Positions 3,362 to 24,997 of a stretch of DNA of 64,000 nucleotides are shown here, in pieces. Every line of letters starts with the position of its first letter. Within the stretch, counting starts at the first letter, position 1. A model generated the notes under the pieces. The model was not told the DNA's origin. It was given only the letters and a program-made list of their open reading frames with translations, and ran no database searches. This DNA comes from Astrocystis sublimbata (taxonomy: Eukaryota; Ascomycota; Sordariomycetes; Xylariales; Xylariaceae). The position numbers were made by a program, and so were the translations under genes. The DNA is taken from the NCBI GenBank assembly GCA_022453515.1, contig JAJNNY010000055.1, positions 186,001-250,000 on the forward strand, written 5' to 3'.

Positions 3362-4601
3362 ATGTTTTCATCAGTCAAATATGAATGCGACAATGGGGAA
3401 TCCAGTGCCGAGCCTCTCTTAGAGAAAATTGAAAGAAGAGTTTTGCCCTCATTCTTGCGCAAGCATTGTGTCACGATATCCATCGCTGCTATCACGTTTG
3501 TTGTCCTTTCGGCCGCTATCTGGACTTTGAGGGGCCATGCATTCTGGACCAGCACCAGAGACGGCTCATGTATGCTAGCGGCTGCTCGTCGCGAATGGCG
3601 GTCGCTGAACAGTCGTCAGCGCCTGGAGTACCTTCGTGCAGTCAAGTGTCTCTCGACAATCCCCTCAAACATCTGCAACGGAACTTTGCACGACGAGTTC
3701 GCATACATACACCGCAACATTGGAGACTATTGTACGTTTTTATGTTTCCAGTGCCCCCATTTTGAATTCTGCTGATGGTTCACAGCTCATGAAGCAGCCC
3801 CGTTCTTGCCATGGCATCGGTACTTCATACACATCTATGAGCAAACCTTGAAAGAGCGCTGCCATTATACCGGAACTCTTCCGTGAGTACCATTGCCTCC
3901 GGCCTGAGTTGAACTGACACTTGACTAGGTACTGGGATTGGACACAAGATTGGGCGAATCTTACCCAGGCGCCTATTTGGAGCGCTGTGGAGGGATTCGG
4001 GGGAAACGGTGACTCGGACCACCCTGCTCCTGTTGGTGGCGGCTATTGCGTTCAAGATGGACCGTTTGCAGGGCTGCAAGTCCAATATTACAACGAGGAC
4101 TGGAGGCCGCACTGTCTATCACGAGGTTTTCTAGCAGCAGAGAGCTATCTCGAACATTTCGGAGCACATCGATTGAATAGCAGTGCCATAGCCAGCGTGC
4201 TGGATATACCCGATTATTTCAGGTTTCTCTTAATGCTGGAAGATGGTCCACACTCCGCAATTCCAATTATCGTCCGCGGGGATTTTTCGCGCTTCACTGC
4301 TCCTAACGGTACGTTGAAACCCATTTTCTCATCTTTTTATCGTCTCCCTCGAACTCTATTGATTGTGCACCTAGACCCGATCTTCTTTCTTCACCACGCG
4401 CAGCTTGATCGACTCTGGTGGCAATGGCAAAGTGCACACCCCGATCGTACCCTGGCCTACCATGGCCCATCCCGCCATAATTCAACCAAAGCGGCGCAGC
4501 TCACAGACCTCATTGAAATGGCCGGGCTTGCCCCCAACGTCCAGGTCAGTTCGGTAATGGCTACGAACAGCAGGCTGCTATGCTATGAGTATCAGGATTA
4601 A
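3362..4601 (+). CDS. Membrane-anchored tyrosinase, UstQ-like
   Basis: Four exons (3362-3731, 3786-3882, 3929-4308, 4375-4601) encode 357 residues. The three introns are canonical and restore the family motifs exactly at the joints. A hydrophobic segment at residues about 36-58 anchors the protein. The CuA site is visible as a His in YIH, then SHEAAPFLPWHRYF, and the C-x-Y-x-G-x-LPYWDW block follows. The CuB site contains GPH and DPIFFLHHAQLDRLWW. The canonical HNxxH of CuB is only partly present (GPHSAIP), as I recall for fungal tyrosinases of RiPP clusters. The family hydroxylates or oxidises tyrosine; UstQ is the ustiloxin-cluster homologue. Its place beside two UstYa genes and a Tyr-containing precursor suggests action on the core peptide. 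Confidence 0.9.
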
Positions 4602-5581: not shown

Positions 5582-6452
5582 ATGGCTCCGTATCATCCTC
5601 TACCTCAAAGCCCTGGATCGCTCAACACTATGAACGATCTGAGTGCAGACACGCTTGCGCCCAACAAGCGACTACGAGGACGTTTGATAACATGTGGAGG
5701 AGTAGTGCTTGCCTTCGCTATCGTCTTCTGGCTGAGCCAGCGACTGTGGATGGCACAAGAATGGGTTCCACCTCAGCTGGGTACTATTCCATGCATCATA
5801 ACGCCCAGCTCATACTGACTTTATGCCAAATTAGCACGTACCAATAGACTTGATACGGTCTACAAGCGATTCTGGTGGAACACTGCGTATAGCCCAGCAA
5901 ATCGCTCTGATGCTGACCTTCTCTGGGACGAAATCAACCCGGCGCATGGTATCGTCAGCGTGGATCGGGAATGGGCAGCAACTCAAGGCTGGCCCCTGAG
6001 CCTTCACCCCCCAGGTGACAAGACGAAGGCTGTATATTTACTCGAAGCATATCACTTACTGCACTGCATAGTATGTCAGAACACATACCAACGGAGACTT
6101 CAACTGACTTGGGCAGCGTATTATGAGACTGACTTTCTGGGAGGCAATCGATGGGAAATCTTTTACATACCACCCAGGACCGCATTTAGACCATTGTTTT
6201 GATGCTTTACGGCAAAACATACAATGTAATGCGGATAATACGCCGCTGTACTCGTTTGGTGACCATACGGCTGGTGACGGACAGCTCCATCGGTGCAATG
6301 ATTGGGAACAACTGCGAACCTGGGCCGCTGCTAATACGGCATGTTATCGTGACAGTGTCGAGGACATACCGCTTAGGGAGCATTTTGGATTCTGTCGAAA
6401 TGATAGTAACGATGGTGTCAAAGATATTGAATATGGAGCTATTGTCGAATAA
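5582..6452 (+). CDS. UstYa/DUF3328-family oxidase, first copy
   Basis: Three exons (5582-5780, 5835-6070, 6117-6452) encode 256 residues. A basic N-terminus is followed by a transmembrane segment at about 36-53, then a lumenal domain. Both diagnostic HxxHC motifs are present, H-L-L-H-C at 140-144 and H-L-D-H-C at 168-172. Both introns carry CTGAC-type branch sites and the splices keep frame. UstYa-type enzymes are thought to be metal-dependent oxidases that form ether or C-C macrocyclic links or desaturations in fungal RiPPs and cyclic peptides, acting in the secretory pathway. With the second copy at 8106-8989 it brackets the precursor gene, as expected for dikaritin clusters that use a UstYa/UstYb pair. 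Confidence 0.92.
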
Positions 6453-7259: not shown

Positions 7260-7544
7260 ATGCAGCTCATGTCGACGGTGCTTTTTGGTCTTCTGGCCAG
7301 TGCTGCGCCGTTGAGCTCAAGCCGTACGAGTAGATTGCACACGTACCAATCTACACTTTTGCGCTGACAAGGTTTAGATAGCATGAATTCGGATGAGGTT
7401 GACTTCAACCTGGTGGGGGACACCTACAAACGCACAATCAAAGACCCTGGTGAGGTGGAATCTGCTCTGGTGGGTGACCTTTACAAGCGTACTGTCAATA
7501 GTGCTGAAGAGGTGAACTTCGATCGCATGGGGGACACATACTGA
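7260..7544 (+). CDS. Dikaritin-type RiPP precursor peptide with three Kex2-spaced core repeats
   Basis: Two exons (7260-7323, 7378-7544) encode 76 residues. The intron is canonical, with GTACGAG, a GCTGACA branch site and TTTAG; the alternative acceptor four bases on gives an immediate stop. Residues 1-16 form a signal peptide ending in ASA. Three units with an exact 19-residue period follow. Each has a Glu-Val pair (28-29, 47-48, 66-67) and, ten residues after the Glu, a Tyr (38, 57, 76). Cores read LVGDTY, LVGDLY and RMGDTY. Units 1 and 2 end in Lys-Arg (39-40, 58-59), the Kex2 signal; unit 3 ends at the stop codon. A signal peptide, dibasic-spaced repeats, a Tyr-containing core and flanking UstYa genes are the hallmarks of dikaritin precursors. 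The core is not ustiloxin, phomopsin, asperipin or victorin as I know them. Confidence 0.88.
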
Positions 7545-8105: not shown

Positions 8106-8989
8106 ATGTCTCGGCAGTGGCGTGGCAGCCCGTGGTACTCGAAACTCGAGACCGATACTGACGCGAGCGATAATACACCATGGACGAAAAGTATAGGGCC
8201 ATTCACAGTGCTTGCATCAATATTTTGTATTTTTGTCTTTAGCACGGGCTGGATGTTCGGGTCAGCGAGCGCACGATCAACGGCGACACTCAACAACGTC
8301 ATACCATCTTGTAAGTAGCATGCTGCTCCATCCAATGAACTGCAGAGTAATATTTTGATGCGTTGCGGCACAGTGCCTATCACAGGTCTATCGCGTCAGC
8401 GGGTGATGGCCCGCCCCGAGATGCAAGCTACACCCCCTGCCGATGGTAGCCATGAACCTGCATGGGACAAGCTCATTCCAAGTGAGTCAATCCTACGCAA
8501 ACTGGACGCCTTACTGAGCTCGATAGGCGGACTTGGCTACGTCAAGAACCTTGATCTATCACCCGACGTTTCTGTGATTGCCGTCTTTCACCAGCTTCAT
8601 TGCCTGGTAAATGCTACCCTAGAGTTTGCCGCACAAGGCGGTGCACTCACTATTATGAGAATGACTCTAACGACCGGGAATAGTACACTATTCGCCGTGC
8701 ATACTACGCTGCATATGCCGCCTCAACTGGACAAGAGTTCAATCATGCCGGCGTACGCGAGCCTGAACACATTGCCCACTGTTTCGACTATATGCAGCAG
8801 ACCCTAGTCTGCGTTGCAGACATTGGCATTGAGCCCCTGGACCAAGGACATAACCCGGATATCATATTCGAGCGACAGTGCCGCGACTTTGGTGAGATTC
8901 AGGAGTGGGCTGCGCACTGGCGTGTCATGAACGGATCAGGCTTCATTTTCGATGCTCCATTGCCTGTCACGGTGGCCAACAAGGCTTAG
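8106..8989 (+). CDS. UstYa/DUF3328-family oxidase, second copy (UstYb-like)
   Basis: Four exons (8106-8310, 8374-8481, 8527-8606, 8684-8989) encode 232 residues. The first acceptor has an in-frame alternative 12 bases downstream (8386). A transmembrane segment spans about 33-52. The HxxHC motifs are H-Q-L-H-C at 126-130 and H-I-A-H-C at 160-164, the second followed by FDYMQQTLVC. The PSGLGYV block, close to the usual PxGxGFV of the family, appears only after removing the 45-nt intron. Sequence is well diverged from the first copy, so this is an old pair rather than a recent duplication. The pair probably installs the cross-link in the precursor core. Confidence 0.9.
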
Positions 8990-9324: not shown

Positions 9325-10825
9325 ATGGCTCAGCGCATCGATCATTTGGCTGCTATAATTAGTACTGCCTGTAACACAATCGCAGGAGAGCTTGACCAAA
9401 ACAACCTTCCGCATCCATCCTTCGACGCAGAAGGGCCATTGACATTGAAGTTGTCACCACAGGCAGAGCGGGCCCGTAGTACCGCACTTGATACTCTCCA
9501 AGAACTCCTAGATCTTCTTCAAGGGCCAATCGCCTGTATGCTCCCCAAGGCATGTAAACACGGCAACCAAGCAGCCTCGCTCGTGAGGGGAGACAGCTGA
9601 CAGGACGCTAGTACAATGCCACCAGCCTCCAGGTAATCTCGCGCCGAGATATTGTCCTCAAGGTCCCGATACAAGGATCTATCTCCTTATCAGAACTTGC
9701 CGAAGCTACAGATCTCCATGTCACTAACCTTCAGCGTATCATACGATATGCCATGTCTTTTCATAGACTGTTTACAGAGCCAGAAGAAGGGTTTATAGCA
9801 CATTCAGCGGGATCTAAAAAACTTGCGACAGATGACTTTGCCCGCGCTGGGCTGGCCCAGTCGATGGATGACTTCTACCGCGCTTTTGCCAGAGTACGTC
9901 ACCCACTTCCAAGTCAAAGAACTTAACAGTGATCCACCGCTGACCCAATATAGACAGCGGACGCGCTTGACAGCTTCAAAGACTCGGAGCCCAACCACAC
10001 TGTATGTTGTATACCCTCAGAACCATCTTCGTCATTACAGCATACCAAGACATAATTACATATCAGGGATTTGCGTTAGCCCACGCCACCGACAAAAGCA
10101 TGTTTGATTTTCTTCGCTCGGAGCCTTCCAAAGCTAGTCAGTTTAGTAAAGCGATATGTTTCTTTTCAGCAGGCATTCCCGAATACTCAGAAACAAACCT
10201 CGTAGAGAGCTATGACTGGGGCTCACTCGGCGCAGGCACCGTCGTAGATGTCGGTGGCGCGGACGGGTACGTCAGTCGAGCACTCAGTAAGGCGTACCCC
10301 TTACTGGAGTTCATAGTCGAGGATCTGCCAGAAGTCGTTGCAAACACGAAACTACTTCCTGTAGCGACCAATAGTGCTCGTGTTCGGCACCAAGTCTACG
10401 ACTTCTTTTCACCACAGCCGGTGCACGCGGCAGATGTCTATTTGTTCCGTTGGGTGTTTCACGACTGGCCAGATCATTATGTTGTAAGGATTTTGCGAGA
10501 ACAGATACCTGCCTTGCGCCCAGGGGCACGGATTCTCGTGAACGAGAGCTTGAGTCCGCCGCATGGAGCCCTGCCCCTTACTTTGCAGCGTTCTGTATGG
10601 TATGTTGAAATTCACCCCTATGTCGGAATTTGACTTATAATGATTAACTGTAATAGTCACATTGACTCCATCATGATGGCAACCAACAACTCACGGCTGC
10701 GGTCAATGGCTGAATGGCAAAGCATCTTTCGCGAAGCCGATCCTCGGTTTCATACTGTTCGACGTCTCTCAGGGGCAGAGGGCGATGCTCTTGCTATACT
10801 TGAGGTTATGTGGATGGGTGAGTGA
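9325..10825 (+). CDS. SAM-dependent O-methyltransferase (COMT-like)
   Basis: Five exons (9325-9549, 9612-9893, 9954-10001, 10067-10599, 10657-10825) encode 418 residues. The N-terminal half holds the winged-helix dimerisation region (SLSELAEATDL, IIRYAM, then LFTEPEEGFIAHS). The C-terminal half has SAM motif I VVDVGGADGY and the catalytic FHDWPDH, whose His is the general base in this family. The first intron needs a GC donor (AAG|GCATGT) with a CTAG acceptor; the nearby GT donors break the frame or give a 29-nt intron. Next to the precursor and UstYa genes it may methylate a phenolic oxygen of the oxidised peptide. It could instead act on another metabolite. Confidence 0.88.
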
Positions 10826-11063
10826 TCGGTATTACCTAAGTAGTTGCGGCCATGTGCCCCTTGTAGTTAGCAACATACAATGCATCCGATGACGGAGCTT
10901 CACATTGGGTACCTTGGTAATCAGGAACTCGCCGTAGGACACGGTGGGAGCACGTGCACGGCTTACACCTACACATATTTATAATCAACGTTCAAGCTAG
11001 ACTGTTCTCAATTTCATTTTTCTTCCTTATAGAATATTGTCAAATTACACCAACTTGTCAACC

Positions 11064-12125
11064 ATGATGCAGTCTACTGGAGTACTCATGCTCGGCAGCG
11101 TCCCTGGTGTCTCATCACGGGAAGTCTTCACGCGCCTAGCTACCGCTCTCCCTGGCCGGCTCCAGGCCATTCCTGACGGCGAGACGGGCGAGCGCTGGAA
11201 CTGGATTGGGTGGCAACGGGATAGCTTCCCACCCGTAGTCCGCCGTTCATGGCAACAAGATAAGCCCTTGCCCGAACTAGGACAGTTACCAATGTTAACT
11301 CTCGAAGATATCAAACCAACAAGGTACGATGAAGTAGCAATTTCTTCATATTCGACTTTTAAGCAACTTCGCCACGAAGGTATCATCCCTTCAAACGTCC
11401 GCTTCCAAGTTGGGCTACCAACCCCATACAGCGTCATGACTGGACATTTGATACCGGAGATATCTCGGACATATGAGTCTCTATACGAGAAACGTCTAGA
11501 AGAGAGTCTCGATCGCATTACTACAGAAATTTCACACGACGATCTCATTATCCAATGGGACCTGTGCTTCGAAATGACCGCAATTGAATACGAACGGGGA
11601 CGTTTCGACGACATACGGCATAAAGCTTACTTTTCGGAATCTAAAAACGATGTCATTCAGGGGTTCCGAGACCGTCTTGTACGGCTTAGTGACCGAATTC
11701 CCCAAGACGTCAAATTAGGGTTTCACCTCTGCTACGGTGACTACAACCATCAACATTTCGTCGAGCCACAGGATACAACGCTTTTGGTGGAATTTGCCAA
11801 CGCACTACTTGCATGCGAAACACTCGGCCGGCGAGCTTCATGGCTTCATATTCCCGTGCCAAAGTCAAGAGTTGACTCCGCGTATTTGGGAGCTTTAGCG
11901 GCTCTCAAACTCACCAATGGTTCCCGCTCAGAGCCTACTCGCTTATACCTAGGTTTGGTGCATGCCGGAGACGAGACTGGAACCAAAGAACGTATCAAGA
12001 TCGCAAAGGCCTGCGTCCCCATCCCCTTCGGCGTGGCGACGGAATGCGGTTTGGGTAGGACTCCTCCTGAAGAAATTGACAGCATACTGCAGATCTGCCG
12101 AGAGGTCACCAGTGAAGGAGGATAG
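11064..12125 (+). CDS. MetE/UROD-superfamily protein (cobalamin-independent methionine-synthase-like)
   Basis: A single exon of 353 residues from the first ATG (11064); a TATA-like TATTTATAAT sits near 10976. It shows features of the UROD/MetE TIM-barrel superfamily: a GSVPG opening, IPDGETGER, a WDLCFE strand, the FHLCYGD segment and a C-terminal ATECGLGR. The His-x-Cys of FHLCYGD and the Cys of ECGLGR could correspond to the zinc ligands that activate a thiol in methionine synthase. It is far shorter than MetE (about 750 residues) and lacks its N-terminal domain. Such stand-alone fungal homologues have no well-established function known to me. Its place downstream of the OMT suggests a tailoring role with a thiol or a C1 unit, which is inference. 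Confidence 0.75.
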   Translation: MMQSTGVLMLGSVPGVSSREVFTRLATALPGRLQAIPDGETGERWNWIGWQRDSFPPVVRRSWQQDKPLPELGQLPMLTLEDIKPTRYDEVAISSYSTFKQLRHEGIIPSNVRFQVGLPTPYSVMTGHLIPEISRTYESLYEKRLEESLDRITTEISHDDLIIQWDLCFEMTAIEYERGRFDDIRHKAYFSESKNDVIQGFRDRLVRLSDRIPQDVKLGFHLCYGDYNHQHFVEPQDTTLLVEFANALLACETLGRRASWLHIPVPKSRVDSAYLGALAALKLTNGSRSEPTRLYLGLVHAGDETGTKERIKIAKACVPIPFGVATECGLGRTPPEEIDSILQICREVTSEGG

Positions 12126-19210: not shown

Positions 19211-20248
19211 AGAAACACACGGTATTTCCAATCGTTTCGTGTTTGGGGTAAAAAAATGAAAACCGCTGAATGTCCATGTTCAAATATAAATTGCATGCGG
19301 ATGGACTTCGTCGGAATCCGGATGTTGTCATGTTAGGTTGTTCAACTCTCGGTCTCTTGCTAGTAAAATCCACCTCATATTTGGATCCTGCATCAATTCC
19401 AAATGAATCTTTCGTCGCAAGTAGCTATGTGCTACCGGTATTTTTAGGTTGACGTATTTCCAGCTTAACCACGTCAAAACTATATTTCATGACTCTTCCC
19501 TGCTAGATCCTACTGTCCCCAGGCGTATACTAAAATAGGTAGCCAGCACCATGACTCGAATGAAACTGGATCGCTAGTCTCAACATGGTTCGCATGGGCT
19601 CCATCATGTCCCAATGTGGTCATTGCCTAAAACGGACCAGAGTTATCTTCCCCTCATGGGTTGTCGGGTCAGGCATGGATATTCAGCAACACAGAATAAT
19701 TGTCATTGCAACCAAGGAACTCAATACAGCCAAAGGAGCCGTCATGGGCCCTCGGGATTGCAGTTGGTGCTGTATGCTGTGTGCTAATTACGTGCTGTGT
19801 GTGTGCTGCGATGTCAACACGTTTAGTCCCCAACCCCTCCACCAACATCGCTATTGACTTAGTATTACCGGTACTAAGCAGCTGATGCTCGAGGATGCTT
19901 CCCGCGTGCACACATGACTGTCCGTGGTCTCATCAACATGAACTTTTCGCAATCACAAGCCCGCGACGACACTATCCACAGATCTCGAGGACTTCCTTGG
20001 CTTGTTGGATCCGCCGACCCATCACTCTTGGGGGTATCGTTCTCCATAACGAAATCAGATTCGGCATAATCTTCCTACCCTAATTATCCTTCATTAAGGA
20101 TTAAGCCCACCCCAACTGATTCTTTGTTATTCTGTCGACACATTTCAGGCAGCGCTGATTGCAGGTCAGAGATCGCGCGGTCATTGACATCGTCGACAAT
20201 CAATCAATATCACCGTCAAGTGGACATAATTAGGCCCGAAACATCATA
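19211..20248. other. Divergent intergenic region (FAD oxidase / ABC transporter)
   Basis: About 1 kb shared by the two divergent starts. Open frames inside (for example 19585-19857) lack domains. It probably holds both promoters. Confidence 0.5.
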
Positions 20249-23200
20249 ATGGCCCCCAACGAGACAGTACCGCATGAGCCATTTGACTTGTCTTACGAGA
20301 CTCTTGAGCTCGAAGAACATTCCCCCAACAACAGCTCCAAAGAAGGATTAAGCCATGGAGAACGCTCGGCATGCAAAGTCTCACCAGACACCAAATCCCC
20401 TACACTCCAAGTATCACAGCTTTCTCTTGGGGCTACTTCGGAGCCTGGAGAGAAAGTAGACGATCCGTTTCAACGCATACCCGAGCATGAGGCGGCAAAA
20501 CTGAGGATCCAAATCGTCACACCGAAAGCGAATAGTGGCATTACAGCACTTTACCGATACGCCTCCCAAAATGACATAATAATTATGATCGTCAGTGCTC
20601 TAGCAGCTATTGGTGCCGGCGCTGCCTTGCCTCTTGCAACTATCATCTTTGGTAATATTCAGAACTCGTTTCAGGGATTCTCCCTCGGCAGGACCTCGCC
20701 GAGTGAATTTATCGACCAAGTGAACTCTCTGATTCTGAGATTCGTATATCTCGCAGTTGCGGTGTTCGGCACTACTTACGTGGGCACTGTCGGCTTTATT
20801 TATACCGGCGAGCATATCAGTGCTAAAATCCGACAGCAGTATCTTCAGAGCTGTGTACGCCAGAATATCGGCTTCTTCGATAAGCTAGGTGCTGGCGAAG
20901 TAACGACTCGGATCACGGACGATATGAACTTGGTTCAAGAAGGTATCTCTGAAAGACTTAGCGTCACGCTGAGTTCTTTTGCTGCTTTTTTATCCGCGTT
21001 TATTATCGGCTTCGTTTACAACTGGAAGTTGACCTTGATATTGACCTCTGTTATTGTTGGTCTGTTTCTAGTTGTGGCTGTGGCAACTAGCTTCGTGGTT
21101 ATATACACCAAGCAATCTATCGAAGCTTATGCTTCAGGTGGGACGATTGTTGAGGAGGCGATCAGCTCGATTCGAAATTCTGTTGCTTTCGGAACAGGAC
21201 CTCGCCTTGCTGAACATTATGATCAGTATTTAAAGCGTGCTGAGTCGTTCAGCTACAGAGTATCGTCATCGGTTGCAATGATGTTTGCGGGAATCATGCT
21301 AGTGATCTACCTCAACTACGGCTTAGGTTTTTGGGTCGGTAGTAAGTATCTTATTGAGGGTTCAGTCCCATTATCTACTGTTCTCACTAGTAAGTCAACC
21401 CCAATACAGATCCAGTGTCGTTCACATTGAAGCCAAGTCAAGAAGAGGTATCATAGCTAGGGTGCTATTACTCTTTTTTCCTTCGTCGATTCCTTTAAGA
21501 TGGAAATAGTTAACTGTTGACTTTCAGTTATGCTGGCTATTGTTGTTGGCGCCTTTAACTTGGGTAACGTGGCCCCTAATTTGCAGGCCTTCGGTACCGC
21601 AGTGGCTGCCTGTGAAAACATATTCAGCACGATCGACCGGTACTCCCCTCTTGATCCTTTGAGTAACGAAGGAAAGACGCTCGATTATGTGAAAGGCACT
21701 ATACGCTTGCAAAATATTAAACATATTTACCCATCTCGCCCCGACGTTGTTGTCCTTGACAATTTTACATTGGATATACCGTCCGGCAAGACAACGGCTC
21801 TAGTTGGAACGTCGGGTTCGGGCAAGAGTACGATTGTGGGACTAGTTGAACGATTCTATACTCCTGTATCTGGGCAAATATTTCTAGATGGACACGATAT
21901 CGGTGCATTAAACCTACGTTGGTTGCGCCGACAGGTCTCCCTTGTTAGTCAGGAGCCGGTCCTTTTCGACACGACAATTTTCAATAATATTTTGTACGGG
22001 TTGCCCGAGTATAACAGCGAATGTGTGGACTCCTACGAGGAACTGGTCATCAAAGCAGCAAAAAAGGCGAATGCTCACGACTTCATCTCCACGTTGAAAG
22101 ATGGCTACCAAACAAACGTTGGCGAGCGCGGATTTCTACTTTCAGGGGGTCAAAAACAACGAATTGCCATTGCTCGTGCCATCATTTCCGACCCTAAAAG
22201 TAAGTTGATCTTGCTGGATGTGTTGCTTGGGCCCCTACTGGCACACGTCATACACCACCTGATGAGGGATCCAGCCAACGTCGGCTAGTTTTTGATATAC
22301 ACGGTTTACGGATGAACTTTGCCTTTATTTCTGTCAGTGGACGCCAGCAATTGGCTCTGCACCCCCTTTCATTCTCCACTCTTCCTTCCTCCACCCCCTC
22401 CTCACTCATTACTATAATCGATGCATACATCTTCAAAACGCATTCTAACGTAGCTGACTTCCATAAGTTCTTCTTTTAGATGAAGCAACCAGTGCACTAG
22501 ACACCGCGTCAGAAGAGATTGTGCAAGCTGCACTTGAAGCAGCCGCTGAAGGGCGAACAACTATAACCATCGCTCATCGTTTATCAACAATCAAGGACGC
22601 GGACAATATCGTGGTAATGTCAGAAGGTTCTATTATAGAACAGGGCACCCACAATGACCTACTTGCAAGGAAAGGCTCATACTACAACCTAGTCGAGGCC
22701 CAAAGTCTCGAAGTTGAAAGATCGAGATCAACGCGAAAATTCGCAACCTGGAGAGTATATTAATGATGCTGTGACTCCAAGCTGTCTCAGCGGAGCCTCC
22801 TACCATGAGTCGCATGCTAGCAGTGACTCTGCCATACTAAAGCGGTTTTCCCAGCTTTCAACTTCAAGCCCGATTTCTAGAGGCAGTAGCTCAGAGAACC
22901 TAGACACCCAATCCGCGTGCCAATCTCATCGGCTTGCCAATTGCGCTGTTACTAGCCTGGATCCTCACGATTCCGCAGGTGAGGGTCATCCTGACGGTAC
23001 CCCGCCTAAGTCCAATCAATTGCCTACTTCATCCCAGAACTCAAACGCAGACCCTCAGCATCGGCAGTTCCCTTACAAGGGAACAGAAGAAAAGGAAGTA
23101 AAGCACGGGCTTTGGACTTTAGTCAAATTCGTCGCATCTTTCAACAAGCAAGAGTGGAAGATAATGCTTTGGGGTTTATTCTGGGCCATTGTATGTGGAG

Positions 23201-24997
23201 GCGGCAACCCGGTCCATGCATTCATATTCGCCAAACAGGTTCTAGTAAGTTAAGACCATGATTTATATCGGCGCAATGAGGTTTCAACTAACTGTATCTA
23301 GATACTCAGTGTGCCTATAACCTCTGAGAACCGATACGCTATCAAAGACCACAGTGACTTCTGGAGCCTCATGTACCTAGTCTTGGCGCTAGTCATCTTC
23401 CTTGCGCAGATCGGTCAAGGTTTTGCTTTTGCTAAGTGCTCTGCCATTCTTGTTCACAAGGTTCGAGATCAAGCATTCAGAGCGATGCTGCGGCAGGAAG
23501 TTACATTCTTTGACGAGAACACAACTGGCGCGTTGGCGTCGTTTCTCTCCACAGAAGCAACACACGTGGCCGGTCTAAGCGGTGCTACTCTCGGCACCAT
23601 CCTCACGGCCACGACGACCTTAGTATCATCCATTATAGTCGCTTTGGTATTTGGGTGGAAGCTAGCCCTTGTGTGTACAGCCACTGTGCCGGTAATTATT
23701 GCGTGCGGCTTTTTCAGGTTTTATATGCTCGCCCACTTCCAGAAACGGTCGAAGAAGGTCTATGCTAGAAGTGCGTCGTATGCTTCCGAAGCAATATCCA
23801 ATATCCGGACTGTCGCTTCGTTGACGAGGGAAGCCGATGTTTTGAAGCATTATCAGAGCATCCTTAGCGAGCAGCAAAAGTCAAGTCTGAAAGCTGTTGC
23901 GAAGTCATCACTTTTATACGCCGCATCGCAATCTGGTGCGTAGGCCCCATGCCGCCGCCGCCCCCCATCCTTGGCGACGACTAACCACCAACTTTGCAGT
24001 TCTTCTGCTCGCCTTTGCTTTAGGGTTTTGGTATGGCAGTATGCTTATTGCGCGTCGCGAGTATGATCTCTTTAACTTTTTCGTCTGTTTTGTCGCTGTT
24101 ATTTACGGCGCCCAGTCAGCCGGCTCTGTCTTTTCCTTCGCCCCGGACATGGGGAAGACATACCAAGCCGCCAGCAAATTGAAAACCCTTTTTGACCGGA
24201 AATCATCGATTGACACGTCGTCGCAAGATGGCAAAGATAGGGTGCAGGCCATCGAAGGCGCCATTGAGCTCCGCGACGTACATTTCCATTACCCTACCCG
24301 ACCTGATCCAGTTCTGTCGCATGTGAACTTGTCGGTGCACCCGAACCAGTATATAGCGTTAGTTGGGCCGTCAGGCAGTGGGAAGAGCACGACTATATCA
24401 CTACTCGAACGATTCTACGACCCAACAGCGGGTGCAATCTATGTTGATGGAAAAGACATACGCACCCTGAACTTGAACGACTACCGGTCATTCCTAGCAC
24501 TCGTTTCGCAGGAGCCAACGCTTTACCAGGGAACGATTAAGGCCAATATCCTCCTAGGCACGTTGAAGGAAGTGTCGGATAAGGACGTCGAATCTGCCTG
24601 TCGCAAGGCTCATATCTATGATTTTATTGTATCGCTACCCGACGGATTCGATACGATCGTCGGGACTAAAGGTGTTCTTCTTTCGGGAGGCCAGAAACAG
24701 CGCATTGCAATTGCACGTGCGTTGGTTCGTGACCCACGGATCCTGCTGCTTGATGAAGCTACTAGTGCGCTTGATTCCGAATCTGAAAGTGTAGTTCAGG
24801 CTGCACTTGAGAATGCGTCTAGGGGAAGGACAACAATTGCGGTGGCTCACAGATTGAGTACCATCAAGCGAGCCGATATTATATATGTCTTCGATCAGGG
24901 GCAAATTGTAGAGCACGGCTCTCATGCAGGACTCATGAAGCAGAATGGTCGCTATGCTGAGCTTGTCAGGCGCCAAGGTTTAGAAGATCACTCATAG
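20249..24997 (+). CDS. Full-size ABC transporter, ABCB/MDR type (TMD-NBD)2
   Basis: Six exons (20249-21389, 21528-22199, 22468-22754, 22810-23244, 23302-23935, 24000-24997) sum to 1388 residues. NBD1 has Walker [10 protein letters not shown] at about 474, signature LSGGQKQR near 585 and Walker [13 protein letters not shown] at about 605. NBD2 has GPSGSGKST near 1179, LSGGQKQR near 1283 and [15 protein letters not shown] near 1304. Two sets of about six membrane helices precede them. Intron two is unusually long (268 nt) and splits the isoleucine codon just before Walker B; only the CATAAG acceptor restores the motif. The 55-nt intron in the linker (22755-22809) is my inference from a frame change, and an indel would explain it too. 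It likely exports one of the cluster products or gives self-resistance. Confidence 0.9.

Follow-up and report, generated by a model that had tools for sequence, protein, structure and literature searches.

The gene at positions 7260–7544 (forward strand) of the window, by which we mean the whole 64-kb stretch of DNA analysed, very probably encodes a dikaritin-type RiPP precursor that is secreted and carries several cores. The window lies within a 259,493-base contig of the 42.6 Mb genome of Astrocystis sublimbata, a bamboo-dwelling fungus of the Xylariaceae, and the genome carries one copy of the precursor. Dikaritins as a kind are already known, five having been reported by 2022 according to the accessible text of PMC10512285; the present gene adds an orphan precursor with diverged repeats and a tyrosine at the C-terminus of each predicted peptide.

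Exon 1 (7260–7323; 21 codons plus one nucleotide) holds a signal-like sequence and is identical to the NCBI protein. It is followed by a 54-nt intron with GT..AG borders (7324–7377), which matches the deposited protein, and by exon 2 (7378–7544), comprising three 19-residue units, two Lys-Arg sites and the stop codon TGA (7542–7544). Joining 7260–7323 to 7378–7544 yields 76 residues and reproduces the spliced peptide of the original prediction, with its signal-like start and three units spaced by exactly 19 residues; the tyrosines (residues 38, 57 and 76), the Glu-Val pairs (28-29, 47-48 and 66-67, with Glu ten residues ahead of each Tyr) and the Lys-Arg pairs also stand where they had been placed. 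Residues 1–21 are hydrophobic, with 9-mers of up to 2.3 on the Kyte-Doolittle scale, and include an A-S-A-A-P context of signal type. Eight in-frame intron alternatives (68–81 aa) vary solely in the stretch that links the signal to MNSDEV, and the 76-aa choice agrees with the deposited model at every residue. Five residues, E, V, G, D and Y, are invariant across all three units, as E-V and G-D-x-Y. In the translation, Lys-Arg 39-40 (7428–7433) parts units 1 and 2 and Lys-Arg 58-59 (7485–7490) parts units 2 and 3, both being putative Kex2 sites, and the protein ends in the third Tyr; a single unit is bracketed by dibasic pairs. The putative cores, with presumptive limits, are VGDTY (7413–7427, residues 34–38), VGDLY (7470–7484, residues 53–57) and MGDTY (7527–7541, residues 72–76, at the protein C-terminus).

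The gene had been thought too short and interrupted for ordinary ORF calling. This was wrong, since a protein identical over all 76 aa, hypothetical protein F4808DRAFT_463717 [Astrocystis sublimbata], is in NCBI and an independent gene model therefore exists. The label "unrecognised" holds insofar as the protein is deposited as hypothetical and the peptide was not reported in the literature searched by exact strings (including GDTYKR) and keywords, a search with most subscription papers and supplements outside its scope. It does not extend to the kind of cluster in this order: the accessible text of PMC8403587 describes ustiloxin-like RiPP clusters in Xylariales, namely in all studied Hypomontagnella species, H. 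rubiginosum and H. pulicicidum. According to the accessible text of PMC10119272, free-living Xylaria have at least one RiPP sequence and Pseudoxylaria none.

The repeat pattern of the precursor is not due to chance. At an offset of 19, identity amounts to 15 residues, a value reached by none of 20,000 residue shuffles (maximum 11). A detector that scans for dibasic-phased repeats was run over the window and 19 other UstYa loci of the same genome (252 kb), and the precursor ORF (z 7.5) was the sole case with z>5 within the window. Twenty dinucleotide-shuffled sets of the 252 kb (5.0 Mb) gave no case of z>=7.4 against seven real ORFs, and 0.05 cases of z>5 per set against 12 real ORFs. Inspection by eye left five of these 12; the other seven (two each in L019 and L024, one each in L016 and L022, and the second frame of L013) were discarded because they were off-frame, GC-rich or of low complexity. 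Pairwise identity between the precursor units is 7, 7 and 8 of 19 (37–42%), and the residues common to a pair differ by 2–4 synonymous codons; given both values, the repeat looks old rather than like a recent tandem copy.

By the definition of Ding et al. given in the accessible text of PMC12048977, five kinds of gene make up a dikaritin cluster: a precursor having an N-terminal leader and repeated core/recognition motifs, multiple DUF3328 (UstYa) genes, a tyrosinase, a methyltransferase and a transporter or peptidase. The first of these is found here with diverged repeats (7–8/19). The tyrosinase (3362–4601, forward strand; exons 3362–3731, 3786–3882, 3929–4308 and 4375–4601) has 357 aa and an N-terminal membrane helix, and matches PF00264 with 129 bits. 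Two UstYa-family oxidases, both on the forward strand, match PF11807 with 76 and 79 bits (cut-off 25 bits): UstYa 1 (5630–6452, 240 aa; exons 5630–5780, 5835–6070 and 6117–6452) and UstYa 2 (8106–8989, 232 aa; exons 8106–8310, 8374 or 8386–8481, 8527–8606 and 8684–8989). Their exons are hand models; the first intron of UstYa 1 differs from the automatic models, and the intron 8482–8526 of UstYa 2 is absent from the automatic models shown. Each protein contains, as read from the sequence, two HxxHC motifs, which we take to be the hallmark of the family. The methyltransferase is of the O-methyltransferase family (9325–10825, forward strand, ends read from the sequence; PF00891, 80.6 bits on frame 9971–10630). 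The precursor is thus flanked by the two UstYa genes, with the tyrosinase and the O-methyltransferase directly outside the pair, and the Pfam matches bear out the two UstYa genes around the precursor and the nearby tyrosinase of the original prediction. An ABC transporter, a possible exporter of uncertain membership, lies about 10 kb off (20234–24997, forward strand; PF00664 and PF00005). S41 peptidases have five matches elsewhere in the genome and none on this contig.

Adjoining the O-methyltransferase is a 374-aa open frame without a Pfam family (11001–12125, forward strand), whose membership in the cluster is uncertain and which gives the impression of a metal-dependent TIM-barrel protein. 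A fungal rhodopsin-domain protein and a FAD/berberine-bridge oxidase follow further downstream. At 869–2026, a 385-aa frame without a Pfam family has a membrane helix and, by eye, degenerate C-terminal repeats of about 20 residues. Twelve open frames of >=130 aa in the 10 kb to the left of the window, read by eye, included no obvious cluster gene. Near the contig end, 42409–51708 and 53490–62787 are inverted copies of each other, each arm being about 9.3 kb long and holding a gene that resembles a PKS by eye, with its flanks. Three blocks of the arms are 100% complementary and a fourth, nearer the centre, 99%; the duplication is either an assembly hairpin or a true palindrome.

The spliced tyrosinase is identical (100%, full length) to a deposited "putative tyrosinase [Astrocystis sublimbata]", and its AlphaFold model (mean pLDDT 84) fits known structures of polyphenol and catechol oxidases from fungi. 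Among the best 120 of 2915 relatives, those 63–87% identical come from Nemania, Whalleya, Hypoxylon, Xylaria, Hypomontagnella and one Xylariomycetidae species, with Nemania diffusa at 87% and Hypomontagnella monticulosa at 67%; proteins named ustQ or phomQ1' in the same set are 41–45% identical. In a tree of 25 rows picked from these 120, the enzyme groups with Xylariales and their allies, Apiospora included, in a clade of 14 rows (support 100/100), and the protein of Nemania diffusa is the sister of the enzyme (100/100); the branching of ustQ and phomQ is without resolution in this tree. Residue 268 is Pro at what we take to be the second His of an HxxxH CuB pattern. The reading as a damaged enzyme was ruled out: among the best 120 of 2915, own gene included, the position is Pro in 98, Ser in 12, His in five, Asn and Arg in two each and a gap in one, and the Pro is therefore a family trait rather than a defect of the Astrocystis gene. 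Pro also occupies this position in phomQ1' and His in an Aspergillus ustQ, and tyrosinases of the ustQ/phomQ type possibly have an unusual copper site. Of these 120 sequences, 118 retain the His-Cys pair at residues 217-218.

The genome contains 34 UstYa matches in 20 places by our own grouping. In the 9.9 kb fetched around each of the other 19, the scan found genes with a signal and Kex2-parted repeats at four loci and none at 15, so that the presence of a UstYa gene is not by itself a sign of a precursor. All four lie beside a UstYa gene: L013 (6940–7389 of its stretch) has a 29-residue unit containing Tyr, whereas L020 (7480–7674), L021 (6469–6600) and L023 (2039–2221) have a 16-residue DG..EFD.D unit with Phe and without Tyr. 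Unit identity is 93–100% at L013, L020 and L023, and L021 is diverged, with 14 of 26 residues identical. At each of the four, the signal-like and repeat stretches are separate, as in the main precursor, and may have an intron between them. With three tyrosinases as queries (E 1e-3), no ustQ/phomQ-type tyrosinase was found in the other 19 stretches, which leaves the window locus as the sole UstYa locus of the genome at which such a tyrosinase was found.

Judged by sequence, the precursor is an orphan. Searched against 5.8 billion proteins, the 76-aa query matched one, itself, and a 188-aa tandem query aimed at longer precursors retrieved none of 7995 scored candidates at E 10. As a sign of uniqueness this is weak evidence, since protein sets may omit small two-exon genes. 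A recognisable precursor could be expected in Nemania diffusa, given its 87% identical tyrosinase, and none came up in the protein search. For the proposed new cyclic family with the cores LVGDTY, LVGDLY and RMGDTY, these searches brought up no relative, and both the cores and their cyclisation stay putative.

From the precursor anatomy and the surrounding gene set, both of which favour the dikaritin-type precursor originally proposed, we infer the core limits, the cyclisation and the product. The signal sequence would direct the precursor into the ER. A Kex2-type protease may cut after both Lys-Arg pairs, the sites being present, and a carboxypeptidase would trim these off. Unit 3 naturally ends at Tyr, so units 1 and 2 would do so after trimming, and three different peptides, each ending in ...(V/M)GD(T/L)Y, would be released. 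Tyr is the likely modification site, since no other aromatic residue recurs in every unit; judged by the gene content, the enzymes that would modify it are both UstYa oxidases together with the tyrosinase, which is membrane-anchored. UstYa 1 and 2 may join Tyr to an upstream core residue or desaturate a residue. A dehydro product is conceivable, as UstYa proteins of the phomopsin pathway also desaturate residues according to the accessible text of PMC10512285. Any ring on the Tyr side chain would have to close towards the N-terminus, because Tyr is C-terminal and nothing need follow it in unit 3. This direction would be opposite to that in ustiloxins and phomopsins, whose cores begin with the cross-linked Tyr according to the accessible text of PMC7329392. 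The O-methyltransferase may methylate the phenol, the repeated Glu-Val could serve as a recognition mark, and export of the product would follow. A possible product reported from a related fungus, cyclobiscognioxin A, was ruled out, since it consists only of Phe, Leu and Ile in the accessible text of PMC12783183.

Against the dikaritin reading we count the lack of a precursor relative, the few and diverged repeats and the missing S41 match on the contig. Alternatively, the gene could encode a linear, Kex2-processed secreted signal or pheromone-like peptide, with the neighbouring oxidases acting elsewhere. According to the accessible text of Umemura 2020 (PMC7329392), 1345 of 1461 strains together have 7878 repeat proteins processed by Kex2. 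For 22% of these a DUF3328 (UstYa) gene lies within 15 genes, mostly adjacent, and Tyr is present in 65.6% of the repeats of this group versus 38.2% of the others, figures that favour the dikaritin reading. The other 78% would agree with the linear alternative, as would the diverged units, which are compatible with a multi-peptide hormone. However, UstYa genes lie on both sides of the precursor and a tyrosinase is close by, and the repeat detector shows no second candidate precursor in the window. The same text gives a UstYa gene within 15 genes for merely 3 of 216 putative fungal pheromones. We regard a linear signal peptide as unlikely.

It is also quite improbable that the gene is a relic, that is, the three-unit remnant in decay of a former many-copy precursor. 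Related lichen clusters have no recognised repeat precursor in the accessible text of PMC12048977, and a unit identity of 37–42% stands against 93–100% at L013, L020 and L023, as would suit decay. The likewise diverged L021, however, also lies beside a UstYa gene, and in the precursor the open frame, the signal-like start, the splice sites, the Lys-Arg pairs and GD-Y are all intact. The synonymous differences among kept residues and the conserved partner tyrosinase speak against decay as well. The last alternative is a chance open frame in a cluster whose product is non-ribosomal and is tailored by the oxidases. The occurrence of UstYa proteins outside RiPP precursor pathways and the two fruitless protein searches would lend it some colour, but it is highly improbable in view of the shuffling results for both the repeat and the detector score and of the fact that no NRPS family was matched among the selected window frames given to Pfam.

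Within the dikaritin reading, we tentatively raise the possibility, which we ourselves consider rather doubtful, of a branch with reversed polarity, in which the last-residue Tyr would be tied upstream within Gly-Asp-x-Tyr, possibly to the Asp beta-carbon, to give three different rings per precursor. Such precursors may escape repeat-based surveys in clusters with a tyrosinase, an O-methyltransferase and two UstYa genes, lichens included. The rule of Umemura 2020, in the accessible text of PMC7329392, asks for at least three tandem repeats of at least eight residues between Kex2 sites with a per-residue repeat score >0.6; the present precursor may fall short of it, since one unit alone stands between two dibasic sites and the units agree with each other at 7–8/19 residues. 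Diverged repeats below the survey rule would offer a simple reason why related clusters seem free of precursors, and the window locus offers a small, nearly complete gene set and an orphan core whose masses can be predicted exactly. The computed [M+H]+ values, for the linear peptide and for the form less 2 H respectively, are 554.2457 and 552.2300 for VGDTY, 566.2820 and 564.2664 for VGDLY, 586.2177 and 584.2021 for MGDTY, 667.3297 and 665.3141 for LVGDTY, 679.3661 and 677.3505 for LVGDLY, and 742.3189 and 740.3032 for RMGDTY; forms with an added O or CH2 are also conceivable.

Among the known systems, the ustiloxin (ust) cluster of Aspergillus flavus, in the accessible text of PMC6514808, shares a signal and Kex2-parted repeats, two UstYa genes, the tyrosinase UstQ and a methyltransferase; every UstA core there has acidic and Lys-Arg motifs conserved at its borders, and the Glu-Val and Lys-Arg pairs of our precursor are similar to these. 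It differs in having 16 repeats rather than three diverged units and in a Tyr that opens the core, whereas Tyr closes the unit here. Unlike in ustiloxin, our methyltransferase belongs to the O-methyltransferase family and no PLP enzyme was matched among the selected window frames given to Pfam; an Aspergillus relative carrying the name ustQ, among the best 120 of 2915, shares 43% identity with our tyrosinase. The phomopsin (phom) cluster of Diaporthe (Phomopsis) leptostromiformis, as far as its accessible descriptions go, likewise has a signal, Lys-Arg-flanked cores, a tyrosinase and UstYa proteins. Its UstYa genes number five in the accessible text of PMC7329392, compared with two at the window locus, and Tyr is first in its core but last in our units; the tyrosinase is 41% identical to phomQ1' (best 120 of 2915). 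Asperipin-2a (apr) agrees in the Tyr at the C-terminal end of the core and in a UstYa-type cyclase, but its four genes, among them one UstYa, a transporter and a reductase, include no tyrosinase and its core is another one, according to the accessible text of PMC6514808. Likened by gene content alone, the lichen RiPP Clan R1 has two UstY homologues, a tyrosinase and an O-methyltransferase; it differs by an additional FGE-sulfatase and, in the accessible text of PMC12048977, by the absence of a recognised conserved repeat precursor. The ustiloxin-like clusters of Hypomontagnella and Hypoxylon also belong to Xylariales, and Hypomontagnella monticulosa has a tyrosinase 67% identical to ours, a candidate member of such a cluster; the clusters of that study were found through similarity to known precursors, as the accessible text of PMC8403587 has it.
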